A stretch of DNA of 61,430 nucleotides from Gammaproteobacteria bacterium (GTDB lineage: Bacteria; Pseudomonadota; Gammaproteobacteria; UBA6429; Thiohalophilaceae). How positions within the stretch are numbered: the stretch's first letter is position 1; every line of letters starts with the position of its first letter. The notes under the pieces were generated by a model. The model was given only the letters and a program-made list of their open reading frames with translations, was not told where the DNA came from and did no database searches. Shown here in pieces: positions 29,956 to 53,922 of this stretch. Both the position numbers and the translations under genes were made by a program. The stretch lies in assembly GCA_022712915.1 (NCBI GenBank), contig JAFLJQ010000214.1:1-61430 (forward strand), read 5' to 3'.

Positions 29956-30027
29956 TTTCTGTTTATTTAGTGGCAATTATGGCGAGTAATTATTAAAACT
30001 GTAATAGACAGAAGATAGTTGGCAACC

Positions 30028-30546
30028 ATGACTAAACAAGCATCTGATGCACGTAGTTGGTACCTGATCTATACTAAGCCGCGAGCAGAGAAGTTGGCCC
30101 AGGAAAACCTGCAAAGGCAGGAGTTTGTTACCTATTTGCCACTCATACAGGAAACACATCGTATTCGTGGCAAGTATGCATCACGCATTGAGCCGATGTT
30201 TCCTCGCTACCTGTTTATTCAACTCAACTGTACTACTGACAACTGGTCTCCGATTCGCTCTACTCTAGGTGTTTCATCTATTGTTCGTTTTGGCACTTAC
30301 CCTATGCAGGTACCAGAATCCTTACTGGAAATACTGCAAAAAAATGAAGATGACAATGGGAGCCAGTCAATGACAGAAAAAGAATTTCAAACCGGTGATT
30401 GTATTCGTATTATAGAAGGTGCGATGGCCGGGCTCGAAGGGATTTATGAAAGCAAAACTAGCAAGGAACGCGTAATAATTTTATTGAATATAGCAGGTCA
30501 ATATACCCGTGTGAATATGACACGACACGACTTGCAGCTTGCATAA
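30028..30546 (+). CDS. rfaH: RfaH-like transcription antiterminator
   Basis: A 172-residue NusG paralogue. The N-terminal NGN domain (about residues 8-105) starts SWYLIYTKPRAEKLAQENL and includes IEPMFPRYLFIQL, as in RfaH. The C-terminal KOW-like part (about 120-172) has GDCIRIIEGAMAGLEGIY. RfaH binds paused RNA polymerase at ops sites and prevents Rho-dependent stopping in long surface-sugar operons. An exact ops sequence lies 62 bases after its stop, before the first sugar-locus gene. The ATG at 30028 is chosen over the TTG at 30019. Confidence 0.9.
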   Translation: MTKQASDARSWYLIYTKPRAEKLAQENLQRQEFVTYLPLIQETHRIRGKYASRIEPMFPRYLFIQLNCTTDNWSPIRSTLGVSSIVRFGTYPMQVPESLLEILQKNEDDNGSQSMTEKEFQTGDCIRIIEGAMAGLEGIYESKTSKERVIILLNIAGQYTRVNMTRHDLQLA

Positions 30547-34064: not shown

Positions 34065-34823
34065 ATGCGGTTCACGGATCAAAGAATTTTAATAACGGGT
34101 GCGGGTGGACAATTGGGTGCTAGTTTTGCACGCTCATTCGTTGATGAGGGAGCAAAGCTTTGGTTAGCAGATAGCTCTTCGGAGAATTTATCTAAAACAA
34201 TTAAACTCCTTCCCTCTGATTGTATTTTAGATAGTTTAGTATTTGATGTTTCTAAACCTGAAGAAGTTGCTAATGCTTTCTCACAAATAAATGAAAGTGG
34301 TAGAGCATTGGATATATTGGTTAATAATGCTGGGATCGGAGTATTTACGCCTTTTTGGGAGCGTGATTATAATGAATTTATGCATGTTATGTCTGTCAAT
34401 GCAGGCGGGACCTTTCTATGCATACGAGAGGCACTTCGGTTAATGAAAGATAATAGTAATGGCAGTATAGTAAATATTGGTTCTATTTATGGTGTAGTAA
34501 GTAGTGACCCTAGTATCTACACTGATTGCGCAAGAATGAATTCAGAAGTTTATAGTGCATCTAAAGCCGCTGTTATTCAAATGACAAAGTATTTTGCAGT
34601 GCACGCGGCTGAACTTGGAGTTCGAGTTAATTGTGTGAGTCCTGGTGGGGTTTTTAATAACCAGGGTGATGAGTTTGTTGAAAACTATTCTAATCGTACA
34701 CCTATGCATCGAATGGCTGATGAAAACGAAATCTGTGGGGCTGTGAAATTTTTAGCTTCTTCAGAATCTAAATATGTGTCTGGTCAAAATATTATTGTGG
34801 ATGGTGGCCTTACATCATGGTAG
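34065..34823 (+). CDS. Short-chain dehydrogenase of the sugar-acid module
   Basis: A 252-residue classical SDR. The nucleotide-binding loop is TGAGGQLGASFARSF, followed by NNAGIG and the catalytic YSASKAAV. The C-terminal SGQNIIVDGG is typical. It overlaps the next gene by 7 bases, which suggests a shared pathway. Such SDRs in sugar-acid loci oxidise or reduce a sugar hydroxyl or keto group. The substrate is unknown. The 224-bp gap before it holds no gene I can identify. Confidence 0.82.
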   Translation: MRFTDQRILITGAGGQLGASFARSFVDEGAKLWLADSSSENLSKTIKLLPSDCILDSLVFDVSKPEEVANAFSQINESGRALDILVNNAGIGVFTPFWERDYNEFMHVMSVNAGGTFLCIREALRLMKDNSNGSIVNIGSIYGVVSSDPSIYTDCARMNSEVYSASKAAVIQMTKYFAVHAAELGVRVNCVSPGGVFNNQGDEFVENYSNRTPMHRMADENEICGAVKFLASSESKYVSGQNIIVDGGLTSW

Positions 34824-37192
34824 ATCACTCTGTTGTTATTTTTGGTGCTGGAATGTCAGGGCTTGTTACTGGCTATGAATTCGCTCGACGGGGTGTGCCG
34901 GTAAGAATTATTGAAAGGTTATCAGTGCCAGGTGGTTTGGCACGGACTGAGCGGTTTTCAGATTATTATATCGATGCTGGCCCTCATTTATTTCATACAT
35001 CAAATCCTGAGATTATTGCTTATTGGCAGAACATCTTTCCAGGCGCTTTTCGTTCGCCTTCCTTGTACGGAAAAAATTATGTTAAAGGACAGTTTTTTGA
35101 TTACCCTCTTACAGAAGATACACTTAAGCAATTCCCGATTGAAATATTTGAACAAATAAAATGTGAATTGGATGCAAAAGATTCCGCTAAATTAAGCTCC
35201 GCTAAAAATTATCGAGAATACATGGAAGCATTGGCTGGGCCTACACTGCAAAAAATATTTTACGATAAATATCCAGAAAAATTATGGGGGATGTCAACGG
35301 ATGAGCTTTCTGCAAATTGGGCGCCCCAACGAATTGAAATTCGTACCGAAAAGAAACCATTTCATGCTGATCAATGGTCGGCTGTCGCAAAAAATGGCTG
35401 TGGACATCCTCTTGAATTACTAGCGGATAAAATTGTAGAGCTAGGTGGGGTTATAGATTTTGATACGGAAGTGATTGGTGTACATCTTGATGGCAATGTA
35501 ATCAGCAAGGTGGATACCAATTCGGGTGAAATAAATATCAATTCTACTGATATTGTTATATCAACATTACCTATTAATGTTAATTCAGGCTTTCTAAATG
35601 TAAGTTGTAATTTAACATTTCGGAATATAAAGCTTGTCATCATTGCAACAACGGGGCCAGATCCATTTCCTAAAGATGCTGATTGGTTATATTTTGATGA
35701 TGCCGACATTATCTTCCACCGCGCAGGTTTACAGACACGCTTTAGTGATATTGGTATTCCAGAAGGCTGGTCAATTTTATGTTGTGAGATTGCATATACT
35801 TCGGGCGACAGTGTATCAAGTATGCAAGAGAAAGAACTTGTTGATCATGTAGTGAGTGATTTAGAAAAACTTGGTTTTGTAAATCCATTAGAAATTGTGA
35901 AGTCACACTATATGGACCTGGGCCCACTTTATCCCGGTTATAGAGTCGGTTACGAAGAAGAGTTGCAGCGAGTAATAAGTGAGTTGGAACAAACGGGTAA
36001 TTTTTATTTTACAGGGACTCTCGCAGATTTCTCATATGCTGATTTCCAAATATTGTGTGCCAAAGCAATAGATCTTGTAGATATGATTCAAGATCCGGGT
36101 TCAGCATTCAATCGGGTTGCTCGTGTTAAGAAAAGAATTACTAAATTTAACAGTGTTGTAACAATCGGTAGAAATTTAATCGGGAAGGATTATTCACCAT
36201 ATATAATTGGCGAAATTGGTTTGTGTCATAACGGTAGTGTTGATATCGCAAAGAAATTGGTTGACGCATGTGTAGAGGCAGGCTGCCAAGCAGTTAAATT
36301 TCAGACTTTTAACTCTGAACGAATATCCGCTAAAGTTCTCGACTCTCGGCATCATGAAGATATTCTTGATTTAGAAGAAAATATGCATCAACTTTTTAAT
36401 AGGTTGATTTTCTCATTTGAAGAGCTTGATGAAATATTTTCTTATGCTCGCTCAAGAAATATAGATGTTTTCTCTACGCCGTTTGATATCGAATCACTAC
36501 GCTTACTAGAAAAACTTGAAGTACCCGCATATAAAATAGCCTCAATGGACGTGGTTAACTTGCCACTTATCCGTGAAGTAGCTATGACGATGAAGCCAAT
36601 CATAATGTCTACAGGCATGACAACGCTGGGTGATATTGAAGAAGCGGTTAATACTATTTTAGAAGTGGGTAATCCAAACTTAATATTATTGCATTGTGTT
36701 TCTAGTTACCCTGCTTCAGCAGCAGAGTCCAATTTACGGATGATTGAAACTCTGGCTAGAACATTTCAAGTCGTTACAGGGTTCTCTGACCATTTTCCAG
36801 ATATATTTTTGGTTCCAGCGGCAATTTCATTGGGTGCGAGAGTCATAGAGAAACATGTGACATTGGACAGGTCAATGAAAGGGCCCGATCATATATTTTC
36901 TCTCGAGCCAAAAAATATCAAATTGCTTGTGAAACAATCTGAAACAACATTTACGGCTTTAGGTAATGGTATAAAGGGAATTTCTACAAGTGAATATCGT
37001 ACAATACAAAAATTGCGTCGTAGTATTTTTGCGCGAAAAGATATTCCAGCCGGGACAGTGATTACAAAAGATATGCTCATAATAAAATCTCCAGGTATTG
37101 GTATTATGCCAAAGTACCTTGATTTAATTATTGGTAGAACTGCAATGGCAGATATTGAATCTGATCATCCAATAACATGGAAAAAGATTTAA
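34817..37192 (+). CDS. Fusion: FAD-dependent oxidoreductase + NeuB-type sugar-acid synthase with SAF domain
   Basis: A 791-residue protein with two enzymes in one frame. Residues 1 to about 425 form an FAD oxidoreductase of the UDP-galactopyranose mutase/protoporphyrinogen oxidase type: VVIFGAGMSGLVTGYEF, PGGLARTE, and DAGPHLFHTSN. After a short linker, residues about 458-725 are a sialic-acid-synthase barrel: GEIGLCHNG (465-473), CQAVKFQTF, FSTPFD, STGM, LLHCVSSYP, EKHVTLD and GPDHIFSLEP. Residues about 734-790 are the SAF antifreeze-like domain (RRSIFARKDIPAGTVITKDM). The second half should condense phosphoenolpyruvate with an aldose. The usual NHNG reads CHNG. I know of no such fusion. It could channel an oxidised or rearranged aldose to the synthase. 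The frame is continuous across the junction. Confidence 0.85.
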   Translation: MVDHSVVIFGAGMSGLVTGYEFARRGVPVRIIERLSVPGGLARTERFSDYYIDAGPHLFHTSNPEIIAYWQNIFPGAFRSPSLYGKNYVKGQFFDYPLTEDTLKQFPIEIFEQIKCELDAKDSAKLSSAKNYREYMEALAGPTLQKIFYDKYPEKLWGMSTDELSANWAPQRIEIRTEKKPFHADQWSAVAKNGCGHPLELLADKIVELGGVIDFDTEVIGVHLDGNVISKVDTNSGEININSTDIVISTLPINVNSGFLNVSCNLTFRNIKLVIIATTGPDPFPKDADWLYFDDADIIFHRAGLQTRFSDIGIPEGWSILCCEIAYTSGDSVSSMQEKELVDHVVSDLEKLGFVNPLEIVKSHYMDLGPLYPGYRVGYEEELQRVISELEQTGNFYFTGTLADFSYADFQILCAKAIDLVDMIQDPGSAFNRVARVKKRITKFNSVVTIGRNLIGKDYSPYIIGEIGLCHNGSVDIAKKLVDACVEAGCQAVKFQTFNSERISAKVLDSRHHEDILDLEENMHQLFNRLIFSFEELDEIFSYARSRNIDVFSTPFDIESLRLLEKLEVPAYKIASMDVVNLPLIREVAMTMKPIIMSTGMTTLGDIEEAVNTILEVGNPNLILLHCVSSYPASAAESNLRMIETLARTFQVVTGFSDHFPDIFLVPAAISLGARVIEKHVTLDRSMKGPDHIFSLEPKNIKLLVKQSETTFTALGNGIKGISTSEYRTIQKLRRSIFARKDIPAGTVITKDMLIIKSPGIGIMPKYLDLIIGRTAMADIESDHPITWKKI

Positions 37193-38268
37193 TGACACAC
37201 ATGCATGACGAAATCGATAGAATTTTAGTAAACGTAAATGCTCAGGCAAAAAAGCAAGATAAGCTATCTGGTTTTTGTATAGGTAATACCCGTAAAATAA
37301 ATTCTACCGGACTATATTTTTCTCCAATACGAAATACTGCTAAATTAGTTGCTGGAAGTGTAATTGTCTACAGTGCTGATCAGGCTGGGACTCTGGCTCA
37401 ATATATTGACGGAAAGGTGGATTACATATTAGTTGACACAGAAAAAAAAATTAGTCCAGAGCTCTATACTGATGAAAATGTTGGTAATGTTGAACGAACA
37501 GTACGAGAAAATGTGACTACATCGAAGATACTTACCTATAAAGGTAATGATTTGACGGTGGATTCAATTGAAAATCTGATAGCTGAAATATTGTCTTCAT
37601 ATCCGCGAGGATTGAGTGGGAAAAATGCTACAATTATTGGCGCAGGGAATATCGGTTCGAAATTGGCGCTTAAACTTGTTGAGCGCGGTATGAATGTTAC
37701 TATTACCCGCCGTAATCAAGAAAAATTAGAGGCAATTGTTACAGCACTGAATTATATTAAGCCGGCTGAAACAATATCATCTGTTACTGGTACAGCTGAT
37801 AACATGATGGCGGCGAGCGGTGCAAATCTTCTTGTTGGTTTAACTAATGGTAATCCAAGTATAACTCCAGAGATGATTGATGCGCTGGCTCCTGGGGCTA
37901 TTTTGCTTGATGCCGGGAAGGGATGTTTTACACAGGATGCAGTACAGCTAGCAATGAATATGGGTATGTCAATTTATCGTGCAGATATACGGCCAGGATT
38001 CGCTGGACATTCAGAAATGGTACTTAATACAGAACAGCTTGTGAAAAACACACTAGGACGTAAAGTTATTTGTGGTGTACCTATTGTGTCAGGTGGTTTA
38101 TTAGGGAGAATGAATGAAGTGGTGGTTGATAATGTAAATGCACCACAATCGATTTTTGGTCTTGCTAATGGTATGGGTGATTTTATTCGTAATCTAAATC
38201 CTATGCAGCAAGAACTTATTACTATAGTTGAAAATTATTTGGATAAAAATAATGGATCTTTAAGTTAA
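37192..38268 (+). CDS. NAD(P)-binding Rossmann protein of the sugar-acid module, family unknown
   Basis: A 358-residue protein. A clear Rossmann motif follows residue 148 (GKNATIIGAGNIGSKLALKL), then TRRNQEKL, which suggests NADP use. C-terminal to it are LLDAGKGCFT, YRADIRPGFAGHSE and VPIVSGGLLGRMNEVVVDN. The layout recalls shikimate-dehydrogenase/glutamyl-tRNA-reductase-like enzymes, but I cannot name a family. The start is taken as ATG at 37192, overlapping the stop of the fusion gene (TAATG), so the two are coupled. An ATG at 37177 is also in frame. It may act on the sugar-acid precursor or product. Confidence 0.7.
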   Translation: MTHMHDEIDRILVNVNAQAKKQDKLSGFCIGNTRKINSTGLYFSPIRNTAKLVAGSVIVYSADQAGTLAQYIDGKVDYILVDTEKKISPELYTDENVGNVERTVRENVTTSKILTYKGNDLTVDSIENLIAEILSSYPRGLSGKNATIIGAGNIGSKLALKLVERGMNVTITRRNQEKLEAIVTALNYIKPAETISSVTGTADNMMAASGANLLVGLTNGNPSITPEMIDALAPGAILLDAGKGCFTQDAVQLAMNMGMSIYRADIRPGFAGHSEMVLNTEQLVKNTLGRKVICGVPIVSGGLLGRMNEVVVDNVNAPQSIFGLANGMGDFIRNLNPMQQELITIVENYLDKNNGSLS

Positions 38269-38353: not shown

Positions 38354-39232
38354 TTGATGGAAAAATTATTAAAAGAGTTAGAGCAATATATGGATGAGCA
38401 AGTACCATGCGTTGTTTGCAACAATACTGAATTTACTAAGTGGGCTTCTCAAGATTATTTACACGCTATGAAGTGTGATGAATGCGGAATGGTGTCAGTT
38501 AATCCTCACTTTACTGAGGAAGGGTTGGATAAGTTTTATAGCGGTTATTATAAAAATAGAGCTGAAGATTCCGAGTTATCAAATTTAAGAAAAAAAATGT
38601 ATGTTGAAGACAGGAACTGGATTCAAAATCATGTTAATAGTGGTAAAGTTTTGGATGTAGGATGTTCGGATGGAAGTTTCTTGAGTTTTTTTGATAATAA
38701 CTTATGGGATAAGAATGGTATAGACTTAACTGGTGATGCTCTTGATATAGCAAGAGAAAAACATGGGGTGTCAACCTATTGTGGAAAAATATGGGAAACC
38801 GATGTTGGTGAAGGATATGATTTAGTTATGATGAGGGGAGTAATTGAACATTTTAAGGATCCAATAATTGTATTGAAAAAATGTGTTGAAATATTGAAAC
38901 CGAATGGATTGTTATATATCACTGCGACACCAGCTGGAAATTCATTCGCATTTAATGTTTATAGGCATAAGTGGAGAATGTTCACACCATATGAACATAT
39001 ACATTTCTTCACAGTAGATTTATTGACTAATGTTTTAAGAGAGATGGGAATGAGTTCACTTGCTAGGCACTATCAGTACGAAGAGACTCCTTATGCAAAC
39101 ATTGATAATGATTACAAAAAAATCAGAGATGACATTATTAAAATTAATAAAGAAAAATCATTAGATAGTATAACTTCATCCCCCCCATTTCCTGGTAGCA
39201 TGATAACGGCAGTATGGAAAAAATTTGAGTGA
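38354..39232 (+). CDS. Class I SAM methyltransferase with N-terminal zinc ribbon
   Basis: A 292-residue protein. Two CxxC pairs near residues 19-50 (CVVC and CDEC) form a zinc ribbon. The SAM motif VLDVGCSDGSFLSFF is at about residue 98, and MRGVIEHFKDP follows. Methyltransferases of this design modify sugars in surface polysaccharide loci. Lying between the synthase and the cytidylyltransferase, it may methylate the sugar acid or a neighbouring residue. Confidence 0.8.
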   Translation: MMEKLLKELEQYMDEQVPCVVCNNTEFTKWASQDYLHAMKCDECGMVSVNPHFTEEGLDKFYSGYYKNRAEDSELSNLRKKMYVEDRNWIQNHVNSGKVLDVGCSDGSFLSFFDNNLWDKNGIDLTGDALDIAREKHGVSTYCGKIWETDVGEGYDLVMMRGVIEHFKDPIIVLKKCVEILKPNGLLYITATPAGNSFAFNVYRHKWRMFTPYEHIHFFTVDLLTNVLREMGMSSLARHYQYEETPYANIDNDYKKIRDDIIKINKEKSLDSITSSPPFPGSMITAVWKKFE

Positions 39233-39289: not shown

Positions 39290-39988
39290 GTGAATCTAAT
39301 TACAGTCATTCCTGCTAGGGGCGGTAGCAAGAGTATTCCTTTTAAAAACATACAGCTATTGAATGGGAAACCATTGATTGCGTATACTATTGAATACTCG
39401 AAAAAATGTGCTTCTGTTTCTCACACAGTCGTATCTACAGACTCTAAAAAAATAGCTGAAATTGCAAAAGAACATGGTGCGGAAGTACCCTTTTTAAGGC
39501 CTGCTGAGATTTCGGGTGATGAAGCGCAGGATTTTCCAGTAATACAGCATGCTCTGAACGAGCTTGAGTTTTTTTATCAAAAGCAGATTGATGCAATTGT
39601 TTGGTTACGTCCCACATCCCCCTTACGGCCCGAAAATTTAATTGAACGTGCTGTAGAACTATTAGATTTACATCCACAATGTACCTCTATTAGGTCGATG
39701 GTAAAAAGCAATGAGCATCCATATCGACAGTGGGTTGCGATAGGTGATTTCATTGAGGGATTTGTCGGCGATATAAATGAGCCCTACAATCTACCTAGGC
39801 AGAAACTTCCAAGAGTACTCTTTCAGTCAGGTGATATCGAATTAGTCAGAAGAGAAACTATTATTAATGGTTCAATGTCGGGGGGGAAAATTTCTCCATT
39901 GATTGTTAAGCGGGAAGACATGTTGGATATTGATCATGTGGATGATTTGAGAAATGCAGATCTTAAGTTGAAATCAGATAACAAATAA
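39290..39988 (+). CDS. CMP-sugar-acid cytidylyltransferase (NeuA/LegF/PseF-like)
   Basis: A 232-residue nucleotidyltransferase. The CTP-binding motif IPARGGSKSIPFKNI is at the N-terminus, followed by VVSTDSKKIA, WLRPTSPLR and the C-terminal DIDHVDDL. It activates a nonulosonic-type sugar acid to the CMP form, so it is the natural partner of the NeuB half of the fusion protein. The start is GTG at 39290. It is intact, unlike the remnant at 32661. Confidence 0.87.
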   Translation: MNLITVIPARGGSKSIPFKNIQLLNGKPLIAYTIEYSKKCASVSHTVVSTDSKKIAEIAKEHGAEVPFLRPAEISGDEAQDFPVIQHALNELEFFYQKQIDAIVWLRPTSPLRPENLIERAVELLDLHPQCTSIRSMVKSNEHPYRQWVAIGDFIEGFVGDINEPYNLPRQKLPRVLFQSGDIELVRRETIINGSMSGGKISPLIVKREDMLDIDHVDDLRNADLKLKSDNK

Positions 39989-40122: not shown

Positions 40123-40998
40123 ATGTCTAGTAAAATTATTTTGGGAACAGCCAAATTTGGTATTTCTGGCTATGGATTCTCTTCGGGAAACCATTATTCA
40201 TCAACTCATGAGTTACTTCAAAAGGCGAAAGAGTTAGGGGTTGATACTCTAGACACTTCTCCTCGATATGGTGACGCTGAAAAACAGATTGGTGATTACC
40301 ATAAATGTAATCCTAATTCGTTCAAAGTTTGTTCAAAGGTTGACGGCCTAATGCCAAACGATGTTCACTCGGAAAGAAATATATTTAGATCCGTAGAAAA
40401 AACAATAACTTTATCTTGTGTTTCTCAAATTGAGATCTTGTACCTACATCAAAATGAGCTGGATATTATAAGTGATCATAATATTTTAGAAGCTCTAGTT
40501 AAAATAAAAGAAAGTGGCATTGTTAAAAAGGTAGGGACTTCTGTTTACTCTCCTGGAGAGTGTGAGTTTTCTTTAAATAGCGATGTATATGATGTTATAC
40601 AGGCGCCTATTAGTATCTTGGATACATATATGTATTCTAAGCTGATTGAAATGAATAGAAATAAAAATGAGATTATTGCTAGGTCGGTCTTCCTCCAGGG
40701 AACATTATTTAATCGAGAAGACATTCGCAATAAAATAAAACAGGCTGAACCTATGTTGGAATATTTGGATCAGGTTGATTGTCTAGTGAAAAAATACGGA
40801 TCGAATTTATTGAGTTTAGCTTGTTCCTTTGTGTTGACATTGCCGCATGTTACAAACTTTATTGTAGGAACGGCTAGTCTACAAAATTTAGTAAGGATTG
40901 TGGGCGCAGCAGGGGTTAATATTCCAGGAGAATTATTTGTGGAAGTTAAGGCCCTGAGTAACCAATATAAGGAATGGGGTAACCCTAGAAATTGGTAG
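40123..40998 (+). CDS. Aldo/keto reductase
   Basis: A 291-residue TIM-barrel reductase. It has GTAKFGISGYGFSSG at the N-terminus, DTLDTSPRYGDAEKQIG with the catalytic Asp and Tyr, and LYLHQNEL. Such enzymes in surface-sugar loci reduce a sugar aldehyde or keto group with NADPH. It lies right after the cytidylyltransferase and adds a fourth redox enzyme to the module. The 134-bp gap before it holds nothing I can name. Confidence 0.82.
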   Translation: MSSKIILGTAKFGISGYGFSSGNHYSSTHELLQKAKELGVDTLDTSPRYGDAEKQIGDYHKCNPNSFKVCSKVDGLMPNDVHSERNIFRSVEKTITLSCVSQIEILYLHQNELDIISDHNILEALVKIKESGIVKKVGTSVYSPGECEFSLNSDVYDVIQAPISILDTYMYSKLIEMNRNKNEIIARSVFLQGTLFNREDIRNKIKQAEPMLEYLDQVDCLVKKYGSNLLSLACSFVLTLPHVTNFIVGTASLQNLVRIVGAAGVNIPGELFVEVKALSNQYKEWGNPRNW

Positions 40999-41088: not shown

Positions 41089-42849
41089 ATGGATAAGGAA
41101 AGATATCTTATAACTACGGCTGATGAGCGAACATGGAAGTTCGATCGACCGGTATTGTTTTTAACAGATAATTGCTGTCGTTACGCGCGTAAGAATATTT
41201 GGTCTAATATGGATGCAGTTGTTTCTAAACCATATGGTGTGTTGGCTGCGCAAAAAAATGATGATCTTGCGTACATCCATACAGTAGTTAATCAGCTTCT
41301 AATTGAATTAGTAGAGCAACTTAATAAACATCATGGAACTAATCATAGTTCGCGTTACTGGAGCATTGTGCTTGGTCACTGGCTTTTGAACTATGTTAAA
41401 GTTGCTTACAATCGATATCGCACTGTGCAGCAAGCTTTGAAAATATATAGCATAAATGGCACGATGGTAATTGACGCCAATTGCTATGACTTAACTACTA
41501 GAGATTTAAGTGAATTTCTTGGCGCGTGTAATGATAGTGCCTGGAATAATGTTTTTTATTCAAAGATTATTTATTTTTTAGATGGTAGCAATATTGAATG
41601 TTATGCTGGATCTCTTGGAGATGAGGTTCGTTTTTCCATGAAGAATACGGATTTTCCTTCATGGAAGTCAAATCTGAAAAATTATGCTTTAAATAGGCTA
41701 GGCAAATTTTTTTCCATGTTCGGAAAAGAAGATGATGTATTTATTATTAATACTTATATGCCTATATTATATGAAATAAAGTTGTATCTGAGTCTCGGTC
41801 AGTCCCCTAAGTTTTGGCGTCGTCAACAATTAGACATTAAGGAGAAAGATTCAATAGTAAGGAAAAAATTTAGCCTCAATACTGAGTCCCATCTTGGCTT
41901 TGAATGTTTTGCTAGGTCTATTTTACCGGAAGTGATCCCAACTTGTTACCTAGAAGGTTACAATAAACTTGTTGAACAAGTTGAATCTTTGCCTTGGCCT
42001 TCCAGTCCTAAATTCATTTTCACATCAAATAATTTTTATAGTGATGAATTGTTTAAAGTATGGGCCGGCTCGAAAGTTGAGTCGGGCACACCATATTATG
42101 TTGGTCAACATGGTAACTGTCAGGCATATAGGGGGCATTCTTTCTGGCCTGAATATCATAATAGTGATAAATTTTTCTCGTGGGGCTGGACTAGCAATAA
42201 TCACAGAATTGTTCCAGCTTTTATTTTTAAAACGTTAGGACGAAAAAATAAAAAAATCGATCATAAGGGAGGAATTCTATTAATAGAGCTTCATTCACCA
42301 TCCTGGTCTAGCCCTGAAGATAGTGAATATGAATATGGAATTTATCAAGATGAGCAGTTTAATTTTGTTGATGCATTACCGGAGAATATTCAAAAGGAAT
42401 TGACGGTTCGTCTTCATTCGGCTCATTATAATTATCACTGGTCAGATGAAAAACGTTGGCTGGATCGACACCCTCAAGTAAAAATAGAGATAGGCGCAAT
42501 GTCTATTGAAAAGTTAATTTCTAGAAGTCGACTAATTGTACATTCATATGATTCTACGGGAATCCTTGAGACACTGGCTTTGAATATTCCTACGATGTGT
42601 TTTTGGCAAGGCGGATTGGACCACCTTTTACCTGATGCAAAACCGTACTATGAGCTGCTTAGGTCTGCCAAAATACTTGTTGACACCCCTGAGCAGGCCG
42701 CAGAAATGATAGCGATGCATTGGGATAATATAAGCAAGTGGTGGGAAAGTGAAAAGGTTCAGAATGCCCGCACTGTATTTTGTGAGCAATATGCAAGGTT
42801 AGATGATGAGCCCATTAAAACGCTAAGAAAACTACTCGTGGAAGGCTAG
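41089..42849 (+). CDS. LIC12162-family putative transferase
   Basis: A 586-residue protein starting MDKERYLITTADERTWKFD. The N-terminal YLITT...TW pattern and total length fit the LIC12162 family first noted in Leptospira O-antigen loci. Its members are thought to be transferases for surface sugars. The C-terminal half has GQHGNCQAYRG and HSYDSTGILETLALNIPT, which resemble the nucleotide-sugar site of GT-B-like transferases. With CMP-sugar genes beside it, transfer of the activated sugar acid is a fair guess. Confidence 0.78.
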   Translation: MDKERYLITTADERTWKFDRPVLFLTDNCCRYARKNIWSNMDAVVSKPYGVLAAQKNDDLAYIHTVVNQLLIELVEQLNKHHGTNHSSRYWSIVLGHWLLNYVKVAYNRYRTVQQALKIYSINGTMVIDANCYDLTTRDLSEFLGACNDSAWNNVFYSKIIYFLDGSNIECYAGSLGDEVRFSMKNTDFPSWKSNLKNYALNRLGKFFSMFGKEDDVFIINTYMPILYEIKLYLSLGQSPKFWRRQQLDIKEKDSIVRKKFSLNTESHLGFECFARSILPEVIPTCYLEGYNKLVEQVESLPWPSSPKFIFTSNNFYSDELFKVWAGSKVESGTPYYVGQHGNCQAYRGHSFWPEYHNSDKFFSWGWTSNNHRIVPAFIFKTLGRKNKKIDHKGGILLIELHSPSWSSPEDSEYEYGIYQDEQFNFVDALPENIQKELTVRLHSAHYNYHWSDEKRWLDRHPQVKIEIGAMSIEKLISRSRLIVHSYDSTGILETLALNIPTMCFWQGGLDHLLPDAKPYYELLRSAKILVDTPEQAAEMIAMHWDNISKWWESEKVQNARTVFCEQYARLDDEPIKTLRKLLVEG

Positions 42850-47414: not shown

Positions 47415-48191
47415 ATGAAAGTTGTCATTCTGGCAGGAGGATATGGGACACGTATTAGAGATGTCGCTGATGATATCCCTAAACCAATGATACCTATCGG
47501 GCCTTATCCAATTCTTTGGCATATTATGAAAACATATGCTCATTTTGGCCATAAAGAATTTGTCGTCTGCCTTGGATATAAAGGCCAAGCAATTAAAGAT
47601 TTTTTTCTAAACTATGAGCCTTATACAAGAGACTTCACTATAAGCTTTGGTGAAGGTGGCGGAGTGAACTATCACAGTCAGCATGACGAGTCAGATTGGA
47701 AGGTAACACTTGCAGATACTGGCTTACGTTCAATGACAGGATCACGTATTTTAAAAATTCGTGATTATGTTGATGGTGAAGATTTTTTATTTACCTATGG
47801 TGATGGAGTCAGTGATGTTGATATTGATAGTTTGATAGCATTCCATAAATCACATAGAAAAATCTTAACTGTCACTGGTGTGCGGCCTCCAGGGCGTTTT
47901 GGAGAGATGGTTGCTTCATCAGATGGAAATATAATTGAGTTTAATGAAAAGCCTCAAGCTACAGCTGGTCGGATTTCTGGGGGATATTTTGTCGCGAGTT
48001 CAAAAATATTTGAATACCTTGTTAATAGCGAAAGTCTAGTGTTTGAGAAAGAGCCAATGCGTCAATTAGTTAAAGACCAACAACTCATGATGTATGAACA
48101 TGATGGGTTTTGGCAGCCAATGGACACTAGTCGTGAATATCAGCTGTTGAATTCTCTTTATGAGAATGGAGAGGCGCCATGGGTTCGTTAA
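47415..48191 (+). CDS. rfbF: Glucose-1-phosphate cytidylyltransferase
   Basis: A 258-residue nucleotidyltransferase. It has VVILAGGYGTRIRD at the N-terminus, YGDGVSDVDIDSL near residue 132 and the C-terminal FWQPMDTSREY. It makes CDP-glucose from CTP and glucose 1-phosphate. It overlaps rfbG by 13 bases, so both are made together. Confidence 0.93.
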   Translation: MKVVILAGGYGTRIRDVADDIPKPMIPIGPYPILWHIMKTYAHFGHKEFVVCLGYKGQAIKDFFLNYEPYTRDFTISFGEGGGVNYHSQHDESDWKVTLADTGLRSMTGSRILKIRDYVDGEDFLFTYGDGVSDVDIDSLIAFHKSHRKILTVTGVRPPGRFGEMVASSDGNIIEFNEKPQATAGRISGGYFVASSKIFEYLVNSESLVFEKEPMRQLVKDQQLMMYEHDGFWQPMDTSREYQLLNSLYENGEAPWVR

Positions 48192-49261
48192 GTATGCGTG
48201 ATATTTTGTCATCATACGCAGGCAAACGAGTGTTTGTGACTGGTCATACCGGCTTTAAGGGCGTCTGGCTGACGTATCTTTTAAATAAGCTAGGTGCGGA
48301 TGTTAGGGGGTTTGCGCTAGCACCGGAGTCTGCGCCAAACCATTTTGAATTACTCCATATGCAGTCCAAAATCGATCATGTTGTTGGCGACATACGTGAC
48401 GCTTCAGCTCTGAATAATGCAATACAAGAGTTTCAGCCTGAATTTGTATTTCATTTGGCGGCCCAAGCACTAGTTAAACGATCCTATGAAGATCCTGTTG
48501 AAACGTTCAGTACGAATGTGGTGGGATCGGTGAATTTATTAGATTCGGTGAGGAAATGCGATTCAGTCAGATCATTGGTCTATATTACTTCTGATAAGTG
48601 CTATGAAAATGTTGAGTGGATTTGGGGTTACCGCGAAAATGACAGAATAGGTGGGCATGATCCTTATAGTGCATCCAAAGGCGCCGCCGAGGTTGTTTTT
48701 TCTGCGTATGCACGGTCATACTTTTCATCAAGGCCAGAATTAGGGGCAGCTACAACGCGTGCAGGAAATGTAATTGGGGGGGGGGATTGGGCAGTTGATC
48801 GCATTATTCCTGACTGTATACGTTCTATTGAAAATGATGTTCCCATCAAGTTACGCAACCCTAATGCTACTCGTCCTTGGCAGCATGTATTAGAACCCTT
48901 GTCAGGATATCTATTGCTTGGTGGGCAGTTACGGATACATCCCGATAAATATTCTAGCTCATGGAATTTTGGACCTTCAACTACTGAAGTGCGTACTGTT
49001 GAAGATGTAACTTCTACAATTATTAGTCATTTGGGGCGTGGCTCAATAGAGCTTGAAATTGGACAAAAAAAACTCCATGAAGCAAATTTACTTCAATTAA
49101 ATTGTGATAAAGCATCACAGTTATTAGGCTGGTCCCCACGATGGGGAGTCGAGAAAACCTTAGCAGCTACCGCTGAATGGTTTAAGGTGTATATGGAAGG
49201 AGGGGATGTTGAAAGCATTACCTGTGCTCAGCTGCATGATTATTTTCCGGAGTTGTCATGA
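48179..49261 (+). CDS. rfbG: CDP-glucose 4,6-dehydratase
   Basis: A 360-residue extended SDR. The NAD loop is VTGHTGFKGVWLTYLL, followed by YITSDKCYENVEW and the catalytic DPYSASKGAAE. It turns CDP-glucose into CDP-4-keto-6-deoxyglucose. The partner rfbH, which would remove the 3-hydroxyl, is not in the window, so the sugar probably keeps oxygen at C-3. The start at 48179 overlaps rfbF. An ATG at 48194 is also possible. Confidence 0.93.
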   Translation: MGSLSMRDILSSYAGKRVFVTGHTGFKGVWLTYLLNKLGADVRGFALAPESAPNHFELLHMQSKIDHVVGDIRDASALNNAIQEFQPEFVFHLAAQALVKRSYEDPVETFSTNVVGSVNLLDSVRKCDSVRSLVYITSDKCYENVEWIWGYRENDRIGGHDPYSASKGAAEVVFSAYARSYFSSRPELGAATTRAGNVIGGGDWAVDRIIPDCIRSIENDVPIKLRNPNATRPWQHVLEPLSGYLLLGGQLRIHPDKYSSSWNFGPSTTEVRTVEDVTSTIISHLGRGSIELEIGQKKLHEANLLQLNCDKASQLLGWSPRWGVEKTLAATAEWFKVYMEGGDVESITCAQLHDYFPELS

Positions 49262-49707
49262 TCGAAGGGGTTGTTGTTACACCGTTGCGCCAAATATTTG
49301 ATGAGCGCGGTAAGGTTATGCATATGCTTCGCGAGGACTCGTCAGTTTTTTCAAGATTTGGTGAGGTCTATTTTTCGTGCACATATCCTGAGGCTATAAA
49401 AGCCTGGCATTTACATAAAGAAATGACACTTAACTATGCTGCTATTCACGGCGCAATTAAATGTGTACTTTATGATGACCGGCCTGATAGTAAAACTCGT
49501 GGTTGTGTTGAAGAATATTTTTTGTCGCCTGAAAACTATTGCTTGCTTACAGTTCCTCCTCTTGTTTGGAATGGCTGGAAAGGGATTGGAAATGAAATTT
49601 CTATAGTCGCTAATTGCGCCACAATTCCTCATGATCCTAATGAGATTGAGCGAAAGCCAGCATTTGATCCCTGCATCCCTTATGATTGGAATATCAAGCA
49701 TAAGTGA
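49258..49707 (+). CDS. RmlC-like sugar epimerase (cupin)
   Basis: A 149-residue cupin resembling dTDP-4-dehydrorhamnose 3,5-epimerase. It has KAWHLHKEMTLNYAAIHG with the catalytic-type histidine, IKCVLYDDRPDSKTRG, and the later VWNGWKGIGNE. It is shorter than true RmlC (about 180 residues). Its ATG overlaps the rfbG stop by 4 bases, so its substrate is most likely the CDP-4-keto-6-deoxyglucose made by RfbG. Confidence 0.8.
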   Translation: MIEGVVVTPLRQIFDERGKVMHMLREDSSVFSRFGEVYFSCTYPEAIKAWHLHKEMTLNYAAIHGAIKCVLYDDRPDSKTRGCVEEYFLSPENYCLLTVPPLVWNGWKGIGNEISIVANCATIPHDPNEIERKPAFDPCIPYDWNIKHK

Positions 49708-52993: not shown

Positions 52994-53305
52994 ATGACAA
53001 AGAAAAGCAGACCGACCTTTAAGCCCGAATTTCGCTTAGAAGTAGCCCAATTGGTGGTTGACCAAGGTTATTCTATCCGAGAAGCCTCCAGTGCGATGAA
53101 CGTGGGCAAATCCACCGTTGATAACTGGGTGCGGCAACTCAAGAATGAACGCCATGGCATTGCCGATCAACCCAATGCCTTAACGCCAGAACAGCGAAAA
53201 ATAAAAGAACTGGAAAAGAGAATTAAACGAATTGAGTTGGAGAAAGAAATCCTAAAAAAGGCTACGGCTCTCTTGATGTCCGACGCGATGAACAATTTAC
53301 GATGA
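52994..53305 (+). CDS. IS3-family transposase OrfA
   Basis: A 103-residue helix-turn-helix protein (PTFKPEFRLEVAQLV, then MNVGKSTVDNWVRQLKNE) with a C-terminal leucine-zipper-like tail, typical of OrfA in IS3-family elements. A run AAAAAAG (53254-53260) is the classic -1 frameshift site that yields OrfAB. An ATG at 52979 is in frame but gives an atypical start. Confidence 0.88.
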   Translation: MTKKSRPTFKPEFRLEVAQLVVDQGYSIREASSAMNVGKSTVDNWVRQLKNERHGIADQPNALTPEQRKIKELEKRIKRIELEKEILKKATALLMSDAMNNLR

Positions 53306-53922
53306 TCGAGCAACTCAAAGAGAGCTATGCCGTTAACCTGCTTTGCCAGACATTTGAAGTGCATCGCAGCAGCTATAAATACTGGGTCAAACGTTCCACG
53401 GCTATTCATCCAGAACGGTTGAAAGAAATCGCCGTGATAAAGTCGATATATCACGAAAGCAAAGGCTCTGCCGGTGCCAGAACGATAGCGAGTATCGCAA
53501 TAGAGCGCGGCACCGCATTAAGTCGCTACCGCGCCAGAGGGTTGATGAAACGGTGTCAGCTCGTGAGCTGCCAGCAAGCCAAACATGCGTATAAGAAGAC
53601 AAAACAAGAACACCTAGCTATCCCAAACCATCTGAATAGAGAATTTGATGTTGCTACGCCCAATCAAGTTTGGTGTGGTGACGTTACGTATATCTGGGTC
53701 GGCAAACGTTGGGCTTATTTAGCGATAGTGATGGATTTATTTTCCCGTAAACCAATTGGTTGGGCGATGTCATTTTCGCCTGACAGTCAGTTGACAAAGG
53801 ATGCCTTGGCGATGGCCTTTGAATCACGAGGACGACCTAAAGAGGTCATGTTTCATTCTGACCAAGGTTGCCACTACACCAGTCAGCCGTTTCAACAATT
53901 TGTAGCGGCTCACGATAATTGA
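53302..53922 (+). pseudogene. IS3-family transposase OrfB, truncated
   Basis: The 206-residue remainder has the first two catalytic Asp residues (NQVWCGDVTYIWVG and FHSDQGCHYTS) of the rve integrase fold. It breaks off at about 53905, before the third catalytic residue (the Glu in the usual NCWDN...E segment). Full OrfB is about 280 residues. The break marks the boundary with the phage-like DNA to the right. Confidence 0.85.

Follow-up and report, generated by a model that had tools for sequence, protein, structure and literature searches.

A UDP-galactopyranose-mutase-like flavoprotein joined in frame to a NeuB-type synthase in a gammaproteobacterial gene

The 61,430-nucleotide contig JAFLJQ010000214.1 of a gammaproteobacterium of the Thiohalophilaceae (assembly GCA_022712915.1; the whole stretch is called the window here) carries, within a polysaccharide cluster, a gene that joins a flavin adenine dinucleotide (FAD) flavoprotein resembling UDP-galactopyranose mutase (UGM, Glf) to a NeuB-type sugar-acid synthase. 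The gene occupies positions 34817-37192 of the plus strand as a single open frame of 791 residues, with the stop codon at 37190-37192. In the reading we favour, to which we give a probability of roughly 0.42, its product is a two-headed enzyme of a pathway to a cytidine monophosphate (CMP)-activated 3-deoxy-ulosonic acid (nonulosonic-acid-like), derived from one ancient fusion, in which the UGM-like flavin half supplies the NeuB half with its aldose. The gene is divided as follows.

34817..36106, plus strand: FAD half of the fusion (residues 1-430), with a predicted UGM-type fold, an FAD GxGxxG motif, and Arg172 and Arg302 at two UGM catalytic arginines
36107..36178, plus strand: linker (residues 431-454), in frame in six of six aligned fusions
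36179..37009, plus strand: NeuB TIM-barrel half (about residues 455-731; Pfam NeuB at 481-720)
37016..37186, plus strand: SAF (antifreeze-like) domain (residues 734-790), in which Ser758 takes the place of NmNeuB Arg314

The fusion gene and its recurrence

Pfam models place Amino_oxidase at residues 13-400 (E 3.6e-21) and NAD_binding_8 at residues 8-71 of the FAD half, and in the synthase half NeuB at residues 481-720 (1.5e-81), matched over its whole profile (1-241/241), followed by SAF at residues 734-790 (4.1e-13; profile positions 1-61/63). The same join was found uninterrupted in eight genomes (the window's own, L001, L002, G883, G881, G905, G858 and G877), while a ninth copy, in G933, is interrupted by contig ends only. 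A contig scan of genomes gave two relatives covering residues 1-791 in full, in L001 (a Burkholderiales metagenome-assembled genome (MAG), 74% identity) and L002 (the HGW-Betaproteobacteria-3 MAG, 75%), and the distant fusions of G883, G881 and G905 share 41-43% identity with the window from end to end; a two-domain frame of 800 residues kept at about 42% identity is not a matter of chance. Six fusions, the window's included, were aligned.

Frame, Pfam matches and recurrence elsewhere confirm the original prediction, made from the letters of the window, that a GLF/protoporphyrinogen-oxidase-like flavoprotein is joined in frame to a complete NeuB, and the fusion of an FAD/Rossmann flavoprotein to a complete NeuB and SAF is almost certainly real. 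The same prediction had described how it could be mistaken, with a stop or frameshift near the join and separate genes in relatives; the join proved unbroken in every one of the eight genomes, and no adjacent pair of an FAD gene and a NeuB gene was seen in the fusion-bearing genomes searched. That two genes were joined by a sequencing or assembly error might be suggested by the state of the material, as the window's genome is in 274 contigs and the other members are MAGs or mostly fragmented genomes. However, the eight intact copies come from separate genomes, the FAD halves of the other seven share 31-75% identity with the window's, and the linker holds its frame in the six aligned, so that these independent copies of the join refute an assembly error and leave it a negligible probability.

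With a profile of six fusions, the 18 genomes searched in G881's family gave 5 matches, all among the 7 of its genus g389; four have intact copies, and that of G933 is cut at contig ends. In the class of G883, 78 genomes gave 4 matches, where the fusion is present in G883 only and the other three have NeuB alone. Elsewhere the fusion is rare. Among the genomes of relatives, 12 of 58 matched at 1e-30, with full length in the window's own only, and under stricter cut-offs the window's genome stood alone among 40 in its order and alone among 369 in its class; 399 genomes from the family to which L002's genome belongs gave 10 matches, the one full-length match being L002's own (at most two candidates were scored per genome in the class-wide and L002-family searches). 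A profile of the FAD half matched 12 of 299 genomes, 7 with fused and 5 with standalone proteins, the best standalone protein reaching an E-value of 7.3e-61, whereas no fused one scored worse than 1.9e-216. A profile of the partner protein encoded just downstream (37192-38268) matched 8 of 398 sampled genomes of the phylum (the window's own, G1151, which by contig number and coordinates is L002's genome, and six more), and all eight also carry the fusion; it was through these loci that the distant fusions of G883, G881 and G905 came to light.

In a tree of 47 NeuB rows the eight fused NeuB halves form a single clade (100/100), for which the simplest history is that the fusion arose once and later spread; a single origin is thus probable on these sequences. 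The two other genomes searched from the window's genus, one of which is just 75% complete, gave no match, and L002's genome, which is among the two nearest, belongs to a different family of the same class, a pattern that suggests horizontal transfer. Scans for viral relatives, which start from short patterns that distant kin can escape, confirmed 0 of 65 pattern matches for the fusion, 0 of 19 for the FAD half and 0 of 4 for an oxidoreductase query (L151). No plasmid record matched 80% of the fusion in a single place (0 of 179, and 0 of 158 with the G883 fusion as query), and no plasmid matched the partner protein. No description of a NeuB-flavoprotein fusion was found in the open-licence PubMed Central (PMC) literature, and six fusion-type terms were absent from PMC7371886.

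The synthase and flavin halves

The best match of the NeuB half among solved proteins is SpsE (1vli, E 2.9e-50), followed by PseI (8h2c) and NmNeuB. Window residues E466, K494, K573, S657-D658-H659, E678 and H680 align with NmNeuB E25, K53, K129, S213-D214-H215, E234 and H236, of which E25, K53, K129, H215, E234 and H236 are presumably the catalytic and metal residues, and by this alignment the catalytic and metal-site residues are kept. The half is very probably an aldose-phosphoenolpyruvate (PEP) synthase. It shares the complete barrel and SAF domain with the NeuB/SpsE/PseI nonulosonic-acid synthases (PF03102 plus SAF), but differs from them in its attached flavoenzyme, in lacking the SAF arginine and in scoring below both equivalog cut-offs (TIGR03569, N-acetylneuraminate synthase, 331.6 bits vs 399.65; TIGR03586, pseudaminic acid synthase, 311.1 vs 340.25).

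The substitution that runs through the fusions is the loss of this SAF arginine. NmNeuB Arg314 corresponds to Ser758 in the window and to Ser or Gly in all six distinct fusions, whereas 40 other NeuB rows have Arg (31), Ser (5) or Met (4), making the arginine common but not universal in the family. For these counts 132 NeuB-like frames were found and 87 not reaching the SAF domain were dropped, and some of the 40 rows are near-copies (L048-L050) or, in a few cases, frames that exceed the length of a NeuB (L009, L018). In the stretches shown, the sequences of PDB entries 4ipi and 4ipj depart from that of 1xuu at Arg314; we take them to be variants made to show that Arg314 matters for the use of N-acetylmannosamine (ManNAc). 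NmNeuB E134 is Asp578 in the window, and Asp stands there in 17 rows, 5 fusions and 12 of the 40 others. The original prediction had pointed instead to CHNG at residues 470-473 in place of the otherwise conserved NHNG, as a possible influence on substrate choice. The motif is there, but Cys470 is Asn in the other five aligned fusions and in 37 of the 40 other NeuB rows; CHNG is private to the window among the fusions compared, which makes a substrate-tuning role weak, and we rejected it as a specificity switch. Five non-fused NeuBs (L010, L048, L049, L050 and L109), four of them on viral contigs, have Ser at the SAF arginine and Gly for Asp in the SDH motif.

For the FAD half, a sequence search of solved structures led to UGMs. 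In the resulting alignments eight residues of Klebsiella UGM correspond to residues of the window (R174 to R172, R280 to R302, Y314 to Y372, Y349 to Y407, D351 to D409, Y155 to Y152, W160 to W157 and H60 to H57), and all eight are invariant in six of six aligned fusions and nine of nine fused halves. According to Table 3 of PMC3624792, R174, Y185, R280 and Y314 of the Klebsiella enzyme contact the diphosphate and Y349 the sugar, Y155 stacks on uracil, and W160 is important. Asp409 is present in 9 of 9 fused halves, as in both annotated UGMs, in contrast to the Asn of 6 of the 8 other relatives that have a residue there. The UGM-type GPH..HT loop is kept in all fused halves, and a UGM-like RITE loop occurs in G883 and the g389 members while being absent from the window. 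The predicted structure of the FAD half, built on 47 alignment rows, has a mean predicted local distance difference test score (pLDDT) of 84.9, with residues 304-312 under 50; its best structural matches are UGMs (Z 36.5 to 3mj4_F, root mean square deviation 2.9, 357 aligned), and protoporphyrinogen oxidases come next (Z 29.7). The half is therefore modelled as having a UGM-type fold, yet it stands outside the bacterial UGM clade.

A number of observations weigh against a UGM-like role. The match of R280 to R302 is the least secure, coming from a weak 0.1-bit profile segment, and on realignment it varies with the point at which the UGMs are cut: C-terminal pieces alone put R280 on R302 in 44 of 44 cases when cut 20 or 12 residues before it and in 0 of 44, leaving gaps, when cut 5 before, and mixed N- and C-terminal pieces left gaps at R302 too. 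An alignment with UGM chain 4dsg also places an arginine on R302, while the alignment used for the fold misplaces this middle region, with R302 opposite Gln in 43 of 44 UGM rows. Because 44 of the 47 rows in that alignment are viral UGMs, the model leans towards UGM and the UGM-first structural ranking is not independent evidence. Both arginines are also found in 9 of 11 other flavoproteins compared, uncharacterised oxidoreductases included, which marks them as a superfamily trait and not as a sign of mutase activity. All of the 9 fused halves have Thr or Ala where the Klebsiella enzyme has R343, an FAD-pyrophosphate contact as presented in PMC3624792. The UGM equivalog TIGR00031 gave 50.3 bits against a cut-off of 303.75 and was outscored by PRK07208 models, all five of which nevertheless matched below cut-off (best 167.1 bits vs 389). 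Finally, a tree separates the fused clade by a 100/100 branch from bacterial and viral UGMs and puts it next to standalone oxidoreductases (grouping 85/78); eukaryotic UGMs, L006 and L132 were left out of this tree, and the window's half is present in it twice (eight fused rows plus the duplicate, branch 100/98).

The half thus shares with UGM the predicted fold, the FAD motif, both catalytic arginines and the Tyr/Asp/Trp/His set, but at 17-22% identity in structural alignments, with R343 lost, a place outside the bacterial and viral clade and a NeuB attached. Its nearest standalone kin by profile score and tree are NAD(P)/FAD-dependent oxidoreductases (called PRK07208-type here, though not themselves scanned with the models), which are 23-26% identical to the window's half, have Asn in place of Asp409 in 6 of 8 cases, and were in no case seen joined to NeuB. 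A structure prediction of the whole fusion with three rows reached a pLDDT of 37.9, too low for use, and an alignment that combined the full-length fusion with both UGMs and NeuBs was discarded as the UGM C-terminal halves fell on the NeuB half.

Gene neighbourhood

The fusion gene lies among the following genes, sharing 7 bases (ATGGTAG) with the short-chain dehydrogenase/reductase (SDR) gene upstream and overlapping with its stop, by 1 base (TAATG), the partner gene downstream, as in a tight operon.

34065..34823, plus strand: SDR-family dehydrogenase (PF13561/PF00106), with homologues in L001, L002, L043, L045, L046 and L047
37192..38268, plus strand: conserved partner, a Rossmann NAD(P)-binding protein with no curated family; an upstream in-frame ATG lies at 37177
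38354..39232, plus strand: S-adenosylmethionine (SAM) methyltransferase (PF13489); a 50% identical homologue adjoins the fusion tail in G933 (L044)
39290..39988, plus strand: CMP-sugar (PseF-like) cytidylyltransferase (PF02348; TIGR03584 131.6 bits, below the cut-off of 205.7)
40123..40998, plus strand: aldo/keto reductase (PF00248), with homologues directly after that cytidylyltransferase in G881, G905, G858 and G877

Homologues of the cytidylyltransferase, at 57-60% identity, stand directly after the fusion in G905, G858 and G877 and one gene further on in G881. The gene in between, in G881 (L043:5951-6760, plus strand), encodes an Antibiotic_NAT protein (aminoglycoside 3-N-acetyltransferase family), which hints at an amino sugar. 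The SDR gene adjoins the partner gene in L043, L045, L046 and L047, and in L001 and L002 a class III aminotransferase lies upstream of the SDR (identified by Pfam in L002; that of L001 is 84% identical). L001 and L002 also carry a cytidylyltransferase that we call SpsF-like from its 29% identity to the cytidylyltransferase part of L042:5543-7300. The latter (minus strand), in the same cluster as the fusion of G883, is a second and different NeuB fusion, with the barrel followed by a CTP_transf_3 cytidylyltransferase.

The partner protein, present in each fusion lineage, has a distinct N-terminal domain and a Rossmann domain, the latter preceded by a conserved K-x-N-D that recalls the layout of AroE/FolD. 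In g389 the partner gene does not immediately follow the fusion: G881, G905 and G858 have both on one contig, G877 has them on different contigs, and in G933 the partner shares a contig with the NeuB tail.

Elsewhere in the window's polysaccharide cluster, a NusG-like protein at its head (30019-30546) is perhaps an operon-specific antiterminator, and a LIC12162-family transferase (41089-42849; 378 bits, above the cut-off of 225) is a candidate transferase for the CMP-sugar. Glucose-1-phosphate cytidylyltransferase, CDP-glucose 4,6-dehydratase and an RmlC-like epimerase (47415-49707) form a separate CDP-sugar branch, and a partial IS3-family transposase (53302-53922; profile positions 93-299 of 369) lies near the cluster end.

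Aldose supply and the role of the flavin half

A NeuB enzyme needs a free aldose, and each nonulosonic-acid pathway known to us has a step that frees this aldose for the synthase. Of 19 plus-strand open reading frames of 30019-53922 scanned with Pfam, and for the most part with NCBIfam too, none was named as a NeuC/LegG- or PseG-type gene. No NeuC (TIGR03568) exceeded the cut-off in the window's genome (G000), G061, G062 or G883, and PseG (TIGR03590) gave no match at E<=1e-5 in these four. The sole NeuB-type match in G000 is the fusion itself. As the usual hydrolases were not found in the window's genome and its synthase is fused to a flavoprotein with nucleotide-sugar-type residues, we consider UGM-like supply of the aldose the most likely role.

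In such a scheme the flavin half would bind a nucleotide-diphosphate sugar and, using flavin chemistry of the UGM kind that is redox-neutral, act at the anomeric carbon: N5 of the reduced flavin would attack, the ring would open through an iminium, and the sugar would thereby be rearranged or released for NeuB, taking the place of a NeuC/LegG/PseG hydrolase. The NeuB half, judging by strong homology, would condense the aldose with PEP, the neighbouring cytidylyltransferase could then make the CMP-sugar, and the SDR, the NAD-binding partner, the aldo/keto reductase and the methyltransferase may tailor precursor or product. UGM-like chemistry in the flavin half is, on its residues, an evenly balanced proposition, and direct supply of the NeuB substrate by that half is slightly less assured. 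The original prediction had the aldose oxidised or rearranged and handed directly to condensation. The hand-over is inferred, and the kept residues speak more for UGM-like chemistry, redox-neutral and with a nucleotide sugar as substrate, than for a free aldose being oxidised, without proving it.

The distribution of hydrolases also speaks in part against this supply. Sub-threshold NeuC-like genes are present in G000, G061 and G062 (best 61-69 bits vs 235.9; G883 had no match), although such matches are common, since a NeuC-profile control matched 9 of 14 well-known genomes and exceeded the cut-off in 2. Five g389 genomes carry NeuC over the cut-off, on other contigs than the fusion, and PseG occurs in G905 and, weakly, in G877. 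The search comprised the NeuC and PseG profiles, with a ManNAc-type epimerase route outside it, and with G000 97.8% complete (no completeness being stated for G061 and G062) the absences are not final.

The flavin half could instead be a true redox enzyme of the PRK07208/protoporphyrinogen-oxidase side that oxidises the sugar or a sugar-derived intermediate before condensation. This would suit the PRK07208 models as best NCBIfam scorers, the tree position beside standalone oxidoreductases, and protoporphyrinogen oxidases as next structural neighbours, but none of the five matched models reaches its cut-off, and both Asp409 and the GPH..HT loop (with the RITE loop in G883 and the g389 members, though not in the window) side with UGM; we hold it unlikely. 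A little less probable still is that the halves serve different steps and are fused for co-expression or assembly only; the flavin half might, for example, convert the CMP-ulosonate, or some other sugar of that polysaccharide, to a furanose. The cluster also carries the CDP-glucose branch, and UGM-family enzymes change the ring size of activated sugars, as set out in PMC3624792. Against this stand the absence of any split form in the fusion-bearing genomes and the single phosphate of CMP-sugars, whereas the kept arginines match diphosphate contacts.

Within UGM-like supply, a more specific and rather doubtful version is a "retro-UGM": N5 of the reduced flavin would attack C1 of a nucleoside-diphosphate (NDP) sugar, the NDP would leave, and the ring would open to the flavin iminium. 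The open-chain aldose would then be taken by water or by the NeuB active site, and the pathway would lead to a ulosonic acid not yet described, with an acceptor that is without the usual N-acetyl contact. If true, this would be a flavin-dependent nucleotide-sugar hydrolase that replaces NeuC/LegG/PseG and hands NeuB the linear aldehyde it needs.

The fusion, which recurs in distantly related bacteria, may mark an undescribed way of feeding sugar into a sialic-acid-type pathway. Where a genome has no NeuC or PseG that exceeds the cut-off but does have a UGM-superfamily flavoenzyme joined to its synthase, an alternative aldose-freeing step can be tested directly with one protein; if borne out, such a step would take UGM chemistry further than ring contraction and suggest that bacterial surfaces carry a CMP-ulosonic acid not yet described.

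The legionaminic-acid pathways (C. jejuni/Plesiomonas ptm-leg and B. subtilis sps) are among the closest known systems. SpsG is, we assume, a hydrolase. Unlike the window's cluster, where no such gene was named among those scanned, B. subtilis sps has a separate SpsG before the synthase in the account of PMC7439481, and the Plesiomonas Leg cluster a separate LegG, as described in PMC4481668. The latter source also gives Plesiomonas PtmA as a 254-residue flagella modification protein, about the size of the window's SDR (a likeness in size). What these pathways have in common with the window is a NeuB-type synthase accompanied by a cytidylyltransferase.

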